A stretch of DNA of 64,000 nucleotides from Bacillus sp. F19 (GTDB taxonomy: Bacteria > Bacillota > Bacilli > Bacillales > Bacillaceae): positions 3,684,001-3,748,000 of the forward strand of contig CP085710.1 of assembly GCA_023823795.1 (NCBI GenBank). Direction: 5' to 3'. How positions within the stretch are numbered: the stretch's first letter is position 1; the number at the start of each line of letters is the position of its first letter. The translations under genes were made by a program, and so were the position numbers. Positions 38,005 through 39,652 of the stretch are shown piece by piece. The notes beneath the pieces were generated by a model. The model ran no database searches. It was not told where the DNA came from and saw only the letters and a program-made list of their open reading frames with translations.

Positions 38005-38169
38005 CTATTTGCAGTAGTTATTGTAGTAATAGCCTCCTCCAAGAACAAGGAGAAGAATCAGAAGAACCACAATAAAGGCATACCAGCAGCCAAAACCGGT
38101 GTATGGTGCATAAGGATATGGGTACGGATATAATGCAGGCGGTCCATAAAAAGGTGAACACGAGCGCAT
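38005..38169 (-). CDS. YjcZ-like small sporulation peptide
   Basis: A 54-residue peptide: a Pro/Tyr-rich N-terminal half (ALYPYPYPYAPY) and one membrane helix (FIVVLLILLLVLGGG) ending YYYNNYC. The helix resembles the YjcZ family of small, Tyr/Gly-rich spore-associated proteins; the Pro-Tyr extension is unlike the short B. subtilis members. Start ATG at 38169 has AAAGGAGG. A sigma K-type promoter lies upstream, consistent with late mother-cell expression. Function unknown. Confidence 0.75.
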   Translation of the reverse strand: MRSCSPFYGPPALYPYPYPYAPYTGFGCWYAFIVVLLILLLVLGGGYYYNNYCK

Positions 38170-38200
38170 TAGAGAGACCTCCTTTATCTGACTGTACTGA

Positions 38201-38228
38201 TAAAATATGTGACATGCATCTACTTTGT
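38201..38228 (-). promoter_or_regulatory. Candidate sigma K promoter of the YjcZ-like gene
   Basis: Minus strand AC, 17 bases, CATATTTTA, matching the sigma K pattern AC-N16/17-CATANNNTA, about 30 bp before the start codon. Confidence 0.55.
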
Positions 38229-38313
38229 ATAGGCAGCTGCCTCCCATAACAGCGATTTATCAGCACTTTCACCTGGTTTTCAAAAAAATTGTGCCTAATT
38301 TGTGAAAAAAGGG

Positions 38314-38342
38314 TTTACAATATCTTCTATCGTGGATATAAT
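38314..38342 (+). promoter_or_regulatory. Sigma A promoter of the yrzI small-ORF cluster
   Basis: TTTACA, 17-base spacer, TATAAT: one mismatch from consensus with ideal spacing, 41 bp before the leader ORF. Confidence 0.9.
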
Positions 38343-38383
38343 TACCAATGTAATCAAATTTATGAAAAGGGAGGTCGAATCAA

Positions 38384-38455
38384 ATGTTGATCAGTCAATT
38401 AGAAATGAATCATTTAAATATCTCTCTATTCGACCGAACTGGTGCACAATCCTAA
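38384..38455 (+). CDS. Leader ORF of the yrzI cluster (23 residues)
   Basis: A 23-codon ORF (MLISQLEMNHLN...TGAQS) with GGGAGG eight bases upstream, the first ORF behind a strong promoter. It ends 17 bases before the first of two matching hairpins. I recognise no family. It could be a regulatory leader peptide whose translation affects hairpin formation, or a small functional peptide of the yrzI cluster (several unnamed short ORFs precede yrzI in B. subtilis). An alternative 32-codon ORF from ATG 38362 lacks a ribosome binding site. Confidence 0.6.
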   Translation: MLISQLEMNHLNISLFDRTGAQS

Positions 38456-38472
38456 TTTAGTATTGTCCTTAC

Positions 38473-38509
38473 CGCCACAGGTTGAGTAGTATCTGCCTGT
38501 GGCGTTTTT
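38473..38509 (+). terminator. Leader terminator T1 of the yrzI cluster
   Basis: CGCCACAGG / CCTGTGGCG perfect 9-bp stem, 14-base loop, then TTTTT. The stem is identical to that of T2 at 38536. Confidence 0.85.
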
Positions 38510-38535
38510 ATGCTCATTTTCATATGAACGTTTCA

Positions 38536-38562
38536 CGCCACAGGTATGTCCTGTGGCGTTTT
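38536..38562 (+). terminator. Leader terminator T2 of the yrzI cluster
   Basis: CGCCACAGG / CCTGTGGCG with a five-base loop, then TTTTAC. Located 37 bp before the yrzI start. Because both stems are identical, the 3' arm of T1 can pair with the 5' arm of T2. Confidence 0.8.
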
Positions 38563-38598
38563 ACATTTTAAGGAAAATATTTAAAGGAGGTGATAGGT

Positions 38599-38739
38599 AT
38601 GACCATCCACTTATTATTTGTTACTTTAACAATTAAACGAAAGCAAAAATCAATTGATCAAGTGCAGCATGAAGAACAAGTTTACAAGTCATATGAAGCA
38701 ATGATGAACAAATGCTTTCAAATGTACAACGGCAACTAA
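38599..38739 (+). CDS. yrzI: YrzI-family small protein
   Basis: A 46-residue peptide: hydrophobic N-terminus (MTIHLLFVTLTI), basic segment KRKQK, and a helical polar tail (HEEQVYKSYEAMMN). This is the YrzI pattern. In B. subtilis yrzI is in a multi-ORF transcript whose decay is started by the ribosome-associated nuclease Rae1, and, as I recall, over-expressed YrzI is toxic. A consensus ribosome binding site, AAAGGAGGTGAT, precedes the ATG. It is followed 45 bp later by the S1025-like ORF. Confidence 0.85.
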   Translation: MTIHLLFVTLTIKRKQKSIDQVQHEEQVYKSYEAMMNKCFQMYNGN

Positions 38740-38783
38740 TCTATATTTTCACTACAACCATAAATAGAAAGGAGAGAGTTAAA

Positions 38784-38840
38784 ATGATGATTCAAATGGT
38801 TTTAAGAATGCACCTCAATGTGGAGAAGGATACTGCATAG
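38784..38840 (+). CDS. S1025-like Rae1-target ORF (17/18 residues)
   Basis: A tiny ORF with GGAGAG upstream and two adjacent ATG codons (38784, 38787). From the second, the peptide is MIQMVLRMHLNVEKDTA, 17 residues with Glu13-Lys14. In B. subtilis the S1025 ORF next to yrzI encodes a 17-residue peptide and Rae1 cuts its mRNA in frame between the Glu13 and Lys14 codons; length, position and the Glu-Lys pair agree here. I recall the published facts from memory and cannot align the peptide. Followed by a strong terminator. Confidence 0.75.
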   Translation: MMIQMVLRMHLNVEKDTA

Positions 38841-38881
38841 GCGCATCATCCATACATCCCAGCATCTATCATTTCATTTAT

Positions 38882-38928
38882 TATCAAAAAAAAGCGAAGA
38901 AACCTCACAGGTTCTTCGCTTTTTTATC
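38882..38928. terminator. Bidirectional terminator between the yrzI cluster and sigK
   Basis: AAAAAGCGAAGA-A-ACC / GGT-TCTTCGCTTTTTT, long stem with five-base loop, A-run on one side, T-run on the other. Overlaps the last codons of sigK. Confidence 0.92.
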
Positions 38929-39652
38929 TTTTGCTTTTTTGCTGGTTTTTCTTTTCTTTTTCTGCCCGGTAAAATTCATGGAACATCTTCATTAAGGCCC
39001 TTTTCTCGATTCTTGAAACATAACTCCTTGAAATCCCAAGCTCCTTCGCAATTTCCCGCTGTGTTTTCTCCTTTTGAAGATCAAGCCCGAACCTTCCGAC
39101 AATTACTTCTTTCTCCCGTTCATCAAGAATATCAATGAATTCTTTCACTTTTTCAAGCTCCATATTCAGCTGAATGGTATCAATGACATCTTCTGATTCT
39201 GACTTTAAGACATCTATCAGGCTTATCTCGTTTCCTTCCTTATCCTGTCCGATCGGATCATGCAGGGAAACATCTTTCTTTGTTTTCTTTAGTGCTCTCA
39301 GGTGCATGAGAATCTCATTTTCAATACACCTTGCAGCATAGGTGGCAAGCTTTGTTCCTTTTCCTTCCGAGTAGCTTTCAATGGCTTTTATCAGGCCGAT
39401 TGTCCCGATAGAAATAAGATCCTCTGAGTCCTCGCCGGTGTTTTCAAATTTTTTGACAATATGTGCTACAAGCCGCAGATTATGTTCAATCAGCATGTTG
39501 CGGGCATGTTCATCCCCAGTCGCCATAAGCCTGAGATACTTCTTTTCATCATTTGCTGACAAAGGCTGAGGGAAGGCATTGTTTTTGACATATGATACTA
39601 GAAAGACTAATTCCTTTAATAAGTATCCTAAAGCTGCTAAAACCCCTGACAT
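38924..39652 (-). CDS. sigK: RNA polymerase sporulation sigma factor sigma K, uninterrupted
   Basis: A 242-residue pro-sigma K, the late mother-cell sigma factor. The first 20 residues ([20 protein letters not shown]) are the hydrophobic pro-sequence removed by SpoIVFB. Region 2 contains [17 protein letters not shown] and region 4 the helix-turn-helix [23 protein letters not shown]. In some B. subtilis strains the gene is split by the skin prophage-like element; here one continuous frame is present and no skin or recombinase is nearby. GGAGGTG precedes the ATG. Confidence 0.97.

Follow-up and report, generated by a model that had tools for sequence, protein, structure and literature searches.

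We studied the yrzI operon in a window of 64,000 bp, the whole stretch of Bacillus sp. F19 DNA that was analysed; the host tentatively belongs to a Metabacillus-type genus. The initial annotation had described at 38314-38840 a sigma A promoter, a short leader ORF, yrzI and a 17/18-codon ORF with its own ribosome binding site and terminator, and each of these was recovered from the sequence. The promoter is of the consensus type, read as TTTACA (38314-38319) and TATAAT (38337-38342) with a 17-nt spacer; the leader ORF starts with ATG and encodes 23 aa; and the 17-codon ORF has the ribosome site AAAGGAGAG upstream of its start. Two elements absent from that annotation were also found: two tandem terminator-like hairpins (T1 and T2) in the interval between the leader ORF and yrzI, and a complementarity between the leader ribosome site (Shine-Dalgarno, SD) and part of the leader's own ORF (the anti-SD), which together make up the helix P1. 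The operon is convergent with sigK (38924-39652, minus strand). The features, with the evidence for each, are the following.

38314..38342, plus strand: sigma-A type promoter, TTTACA-17-TATAAT; from sequence, with similar boxes before the leaders of relatives
38373..38380, plus strand: leader SD arm of P1, GGTCGAAT inside GGGAGGTCGAATC; complementary to 38428-38435, covariation
38384..38455, plus strand: leader ORF, 23 codons, MLISQLEMNHLNISLFDRTGAQS; open frame conserved, peptide not conserved between genera
38426..38434, plus strand: anti-SD region as putative partner of the T1 5' arm/loop, CTATTCGAC with GTTGAGTAG at 38481-38489; complementarity, permutation
38428..38435, plus strand: anti-SD ATTCGACC, 3' arm of P1, in the 3' part of the leader ORF; complementarity, covariation
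38473..38504, plus strand: terminator-like hairpin T1, T-run 38505-38509; -20.5 kcal/mol
38536..38558, plus strand: terminator-like hairpin T2, T-run 38559-38562; -16.8 kcal/mol, 5' arm complementary to the T1 3' arm
38599..38739, plus strand: yrzI (SpyT-like) small protein gene, 46 aa; PF09501, E 6.9e-10
38787..38840, plus strand: S1025/SpyA orthologue, 17 codons (18 from the first ATG, 38784), MIQMVLRMHLNVEKDTA; position, peptide comparison, shuffling
38823..38828, plus strand: GAG-AAG, predicted Rae1 junction between 38825 and 38826; wobble conservation, the cut site itself being presumed from B. subtilis
about 38886..38927, no strand given: terminator-like hairpin and T-run after S1025, common to the convergent sigK; read by eye

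The YrzI protein of the window resembles the YrzI family PF09501 in scoring over the Pfam cut-off (39.3 bits, cut-off 23) and differs from it in falling under the curated cut-off of NCBIfam TIGR02413 (31.4 bits, cut-off 47.05). PF09501 was present in 80 of the 81 genomes of the host's own GTDB family and in 193 of the 397 genomes sampled from the order. Divergent from the leader promoter lies a small proline/tyrosine-rich ORF with one membrane-like stretch (38005-38172, minus strand), whose match to the YjcZ family was weak (E 0.32).

Helix P1 was evaluated on 53 leaders, in which 90.4% of the cells were paired, a value inflated by the choice of the 3' arm register by pairing, against 22-53% in slid registers. 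In the same leaders there were 30 double-change cells versus 9.3 after shuffling, and six of the nine pairs had changed on both sides; in the genus Bacillus, for instance, the arms read AGGCTGAA/TTCAGCCT or AGGTTGA/TCAACCT. We relied on this covariation because the significance of P1 in single leaders was mostly weak (P 0.005-0.51 in 24 leaders, many of them not significant). In minimum-energy folds of the stretch from SD to anti-SD, P1 appeared in 41 of 42 representatives outside the genus Bacillus and in 13 of 14 within it, both sets being picked by hand and not at random. The sole exception among the 42 was the window itself, where the highest pair probability of P1 was 0.12 and forcing the helix cost 2.3 kcal/mol. 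A paired state is predicted for its SD too, with the adjacent AUCUCUCU as partner in place of the anti-SD, and P1 for the window rests on its relatives. The window leader as a whole folded better than its shuffles (z -4.78). No good P1 was found in four loci (L017-L019 and L170).

The leader type is widespread. The promoter/SD pattern was present in 176 of 202 loci and absent in 26, and P1-type leaders were found in about 19 GTDB families. A search for GGAGGTCGA-N50-80-ATTCGACC gave matches in 88 of the 397 genomes, with two matches for the reversed control; the window escapes this search, as it has a spacer of 49 bases. Among the 88 genomes, 86 have yrzI, versus 193 of 397 overall (Fisher p 6e-30, lists compared by eye), and the matches in the two others (G223 and G305), as well as one extra match in G219, look like chance occurrences inside genes. 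No leader match was obtained in Rfam with window positions 38200-38950, with eight loci at the gathering threshold or with twelve loci by E-value; the single strong hit, Bacillaceae-1 in L195, falls outside the leader.

Of 122 distinct leaders, 120 keep the leader ORF open across the anti-SD, as compared with a mean of 41 and a maximum of 54 after base shuffling. The frame in which the anti-SD is read differs among leaders, all three being used (66, 37 and 17 leaders), and in 72 of the 120 the stop codon follows the anti-SD by 14-30 nt (shuffled mean 9.8, maximum 17); most of the longer distances come from the genus Bacillus, where the stop mostly lies 50-60 nt past it. Since the frame is kept open and the peptide is not conserved, it appears from these comparisons that translation of the leader, and not its peptide product, is what has been maintained; on evolutionary grounds the leader ORF is thus kept translatable, as in an attenuator. 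In three loci of the genus Bacillus (L061, L062 and L065) the frame of the leader ORF differs from that of close relatives and the RNA around the anti-SD is kept.

Between leader ORF and yrzI, at least two terminator-like hairpins were present in 121 of 130 leaders, and exactly two in 64 of 78 within the host's own family. The 3' arm of T1 matched the 5' arm of T2 better than it matched permuted partners (z 5.4), a similarity of stems that could come from duplication. The anti-SD has a second putative partner in T1. Across the 42 representatives outside the genus Bacillus, which belong to 16 GTDB families, pairing between anti-SD and T1 gave 13.5 for matched versus 11.1 for permuted partners (permutation with the T1 loop: z 7.3, p 0.0002); the control of SD with the T1 loop gave z -0.5, and the T2 loop was rejected as a partner of the anti-SD at z -1.5. 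With one representative for each of 19 groups, the own family being split by genus, the median p was 0.005, the lowest value that 200 permutations can give. Among the compensatory cases are CATCCG/CGGATG (L193), CAATTC/GAATTG (L155), AAATTC/GAATTT (L181) and TTATTCG/CGAATAA (L038). At least five contiguous pairs were also present in 24 of thirty further loci, the other six having a weak pairing or no T1 called, and in f28, a family of 15 loci new to the test, CATTC/GAATG occurred in 13 and GAATG, with a different hairpin called, in the other two. Fewer than five contiguous pairs were seen in eight of the 42 representatives, and the pairing was weak in f14, f30, parts of f42 and g4 (L035, L055 and L059). 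Of 14 representatives within the genus Bacillus, 13 show complementarity of the anti-SD, over 6-10 pairs, with the 5' arm of a terminator. Matched partners did not outscore permuted ones in this set (z 0.0, p 0.50), and the genus was dropped as support for antitermination through a terminator arm. When the two pairings were compared as isolated duplexes in 41 leaders, P1 was the stronger one in 38 (mean -12.7 vs -7.7 kcal/mol; L186 was left out of this list). Two mutually exclusive leader structures, one of them touching a terminator, are thus found across species outside the genus Bacillus; within that genus covariation does not support the pairing with a terminator.

The best explanation for this arrangement, to which we give slightly better than even chances, would be a ribosome-gated transcription attenuator in front of the yrzI-S1025 (spyTA) pair, combined with a second layer at S1025 (see below). 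The structure rests on covariation, and we infer the regulation from sequence. By this reading, expression of the Metabacillus-type operon would be tied to ribosomes by two layers. In the 5' layer the leader SD would be held by the anti-SD in the 3' part of the leader ORF (P1), and in a ribosome-free leader T1 and T2 would fold and transcription would stop before yrzI. A ribosome on the SD, or stalled in the first codons, would free the anti-SD to pair with the T1 loop or 5' arm; the T1 3' arm would then be available to the T2 5' arm, both terminators would fail and yrzI-S1025 would be transcribed. A ribosome moving on towards the leader stop would cover the anti-SD and restore termination. 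The switch would presumably run in this direction, and it may be induced when initiation is slow or ribosomes stall early, for instance under ribosome-targeting antibiotics.

Partial texts of several studies bear on a leader of this kind. The mRNAs of the yrzI operon and of bmrCD rise on depletion of a tRNA maturase, discussed there as an effect on stability (PMC10100781, partial text) and compatible with the attenuator model. A transcribed segment, S1026, lies upstream of yrzI and B. licheniformis yrzI has a 301-nt 5' UTR (each from one of PMC3498285, PMC3574147 and PMC3871023, cited jointly, partial texts); the interval between yrzI and yrhG of B. subtilis contains ncr2184/ncr60, an Hfq-associated RNA (PMC3574147, partial text). 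All three are consistent with a transcribed leader. The known system most like it is the ribosome-mediated transcriptional attenuator bmrB-bmrCD of B. subtilis, with which it shares a translated small upstream ORF, alternative stem-loops and control by termination (PMC4191407, partial text), and which likewise stands ahead of a Rae1-linked operon, bmrC and bmrD being listed as Rae1 candidates (PMC10632193, partial text). Unlike bmrB-bmrCD, the yrzI leader would use its SD itself as one arm of the switch and has two tandem terminators sharing stem sequences, with yrzI as the downstream gene. It would be, if working as proposed, a new variant of ribosome-mediated attenuation; no description of it was found in the passages and abstracts searched, and a prior one is possible. 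The S1025 system is already known in kind, and this copy adds a member to it along with a new nucleotide rule; the leader ORF and its RNA are the more novel part. A leader RNA with no Rfam match may in this way link ribosome occupancy to the expression of a small toxin-like gene. Together with bmrCD, yrzI would be a second Rae1-linked operon with a translated attenuator leader, which suggests that both controls belong together.

The same leader could be read more simply, with only the 3' end of the operon being regulatory: an ordinary S1025/SpyA orthologue would be preceded by constitutive leader terminators that keep a toxic gene low, and P1 would just limit translation of a meaningless ORF. 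The regular presence of two or more terminator-like hairpins, the strong S1025 orthology (see below) and the missing covariation support for the second pairing within the genus Bacillus all agree with it. It leaves unexplained, however, why anti-SD and T1 covary outside that genus over the same bases as P1, and why the leader frame is open in nearly every leader, and we regard it as unlikely. The switch could also act in reverse. Many of the pairings between anti-SD and T1 fall mainly in the T1 loop, so that T1 might still fold; a folded T1 loop could then capture the anti-SD, free the leader SD and keep terminated leader RNAs translated, or the pairing could stabilise T1, and the terminated leader may even be a functional small RNA, for which the Hfq-associated ncr2184/ncr60 would be a fitting counterpart. 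A leader peptide that is not conserved and an anti-SD read in three frames speak against the peptide as a product, and the pairing of the window reaches into the T1 5' arm; this reverse action we consider distinctly improbable.

The 3' layer, which the preferred reading adds to the leader attenuator, is centred on the 17-codon ORF. In B. subtilis the S1025 peptide is reported to counter YrzI toxicity, and the two genes of the window would likewise form a toxin-antidote pair. The likeness to B. subtilis S1025 (SpyA) of the yrzI (spyTA) operon comprises 17 codons directly after yrzI, an own SD, Glu13-Lys14, an EKD tail two residues before the stop and a Rae1 gene in the genome. Counted from the second ATG, as in the initial annotation, we also obtained Glu-Lys at 13-14. 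The similarity goes beyond this pair: MIQMVLRMHLNVEKDTA and the B. subtilis-group peptide MLRMELLMHYTMEKDQV, which B. spizizenii and B. inaquosorum (L120 and L121) carry at the corresponding position, are identical at 8 of 17 residues, ungapped and counted by eye. They differ at the nine others, the host is of a Metabacillus-type genus, and Rae1 cleavage here is a prediction. The peptide of the window is carried by four relatives as well, with an identical 17-mer in the same-genus genome G046; other peptides after yrzI end in ...WLSVEKDST or ...LWVEKDTT. On its position after yrzI, its length, the 8/17 identity and Glu13-Lys14, the 17-codon ORF is by sequence comparison a real S1025 orthologue. 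Among Rae1 substrates S1025 was the first to be characterised, and its cut positions are apparently adjacent (PMC11780869, partial text), and the operon name yrzI (spyTA) is used in the title of a 2025 FEBS Letters paper cited in PMC12320835 (partial text).

The junction itself is formed by Glu13, GAG (38823-38825), and Lys14, AAG (38826-38828). Rae1 is an endonuclease of the ribosomal A site, and its cut in B. subtilis S1025 we take to lie between codons 13 and 14, which places the predicted junction here. The codons were compared in 136 S1025-like ORFs, picked by their amino-acid tail (our own tail score of at least 2.5), a choice that cannot favour GAG over GAA; the counts come from related sequences that are not independent and represent many GTDB families. 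Wherever Glu precedes the reported cut its codon is GAG (107 of 107 ORFs), against a background of 26% (1207 of the 4614 Glu codons counted in flanking ORFs, and 340 of 1266 for the window). The adjoining codons drift: Lys is AAG in 91 and AAA in 28, and Asp is GAT in 67 and GAC in 64. Of the 29 ORFs with another residue in place of Glu, 22 still have G as the third base, by way of GTG, CAG, TTG, ACG, AAG, GCG, AGG and ATG. Among all 136 ORFs, 129 have G and 7 have T just before the cut (-1), 129 have A and 7 have G just after it (+1), and 91 of 97 distinct 27-mers have G at -1. With GAG fixed while the Lys and Asp codons drift, selection is read as acting on the scissile junction; the nucleotide itself looks to be under selection, with G before the cut largely whatever the residue. 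Conservation of the peptide, with the tail kept as the C-terminus of an antidote and not as a nuclease site, would account for the recurrence of EKD(S/T)(A/T) or EKDQV tails; it does not fit the invariant GAG beside variable Lys and Asp codons, nor the third-base G that outlasts the loss of Glu, and we hold it to be very improbable. Two other causes of the constraint were set aside by inspection: a small hairpin, as the wobble base lies outside the GTGGA/TCCAC stem of some families, and an internal SD-like GGAG, as GTT precedes GAG in several peptides. In family f13 three loci (L159, L183 and L204) carry TGDST instead of EKDST, with the different junction ACG-GGG or ACG-GGA.

Rae1 would be the probable cause of the wobble constraint, another cause being possible. 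The genome encodes rae1/yacP (PF05991, E 7.3e-58), as do others of the order (Rae1 in 396 of 397 genomes); because it is nearly universal, co-occurrence of Rae1 was useless as a test of the S1025 motif. In the 3' layer, a ribosome translating S1025 would arrive at GAG^AAG, four codons ahead of the stop; cleavage by Rae1 is expected there and would initiate decay of the yrzI mRNA. Joined with the leader, this would give an operon under ribosome control from both sides. In its 5' leader, an old RNA, SD and terminator would compete for one anti-SD, and a ribosome parked on the SD would disable both of the coupled terminators; towards its 3' end the fixed NNG^A junction would expose the mRNA to destruction by Rae1. 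For this complete two-ended arrangement we would put the chances a little short of even. At the junction, what was an observation from a single species, S1025 of B. subtilis, becomes a site of wide conservation whose nucleotide rule can be tested.

An S1025-like ORF lies downstream of yrzI in 136 of 153 loci, versus a mean of 3.95 of 153 after shuffling, and the exact EKD tail in 101 of 153 versus 0.05 (20 rounds of dinucleotide shuffling of the sequence downstream of yrzI). A chance small ORF near yrzI, which the shortness of all three ORFs might suggest, is refuted by these counts and has practically no probability left. The S1025-like ORF is conserved behind yrzI across many families; this conservation and the peptide similarity beyond Glu-Lys go against two of the three outcomes that the initial annotation named as refuting its reading. 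Its S1025 interpretation stood as regards orthology, this conservation, an encoded Rae1 and the junction signature. One correction concerns the length: the constant feature is the distance from site to stop (EKDxx-stop), and the ORF extends over 17-25 codons from the first possible start, a spread due in part to an upstream start having been taken. The 17 loci without an S1025-like ORF include the extra yrzI copies L067, L071, L074, L079 and L088. Counts of hairpins, S1025 ORFs, codon background and leader ORFs were made outside the named loci L092-L139, of which some (L092, L093 and L094, for example) duplicate loci with G handles and others (Fredinandcohnia and Geobacillus, for example) are simply uncounted. 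The S1025 tallies also leave out L031/L032, from the same genomes as L091/L090, and L089 has no detectable yrzI.

Several loci depart from the usual layout. Tandem yrzI copies (two to five) are followed by one S1025-like ORF, after the last copy only, in L196, L197, L198, L190, L090 and L091; exceptions are L184, with two yrzI copies and an S1025-like ORF after each, and L186, L201 and L202, with a variant S1025-like ORF behind the first copy. The extra yrzI copies L041, L057 and L071 have no detected leader, and their S1025 sites are altered (RVKDQV, REMDQV or a run-on past EKD); in these cases, just three in number, it looks as though leader and junction had been lost together. A further small ORF with a ribosome site, e.g., MSLHILLLTLVFRKKKFHR or MLSVHVLIFTILFSKKNN, follows S1025 in L173, L176, L150, L158 and L160. 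Outside the order (L238, L239, L252 and L243) the S1025-like ORF is located upstream of the yrzI-like gene and not downstream; that of L238 ends in LLAWLLQEKGHT with the junction GAG-AAG, and in L238, L239 and L252 the reversed-order ORF stands behind two terminator-like hairpins read by eye. Downstream of yrzI in L195, positions 745-811 matched the Rfam Bacillaceae-1 RNA (RF01690) with 65.6 bits.
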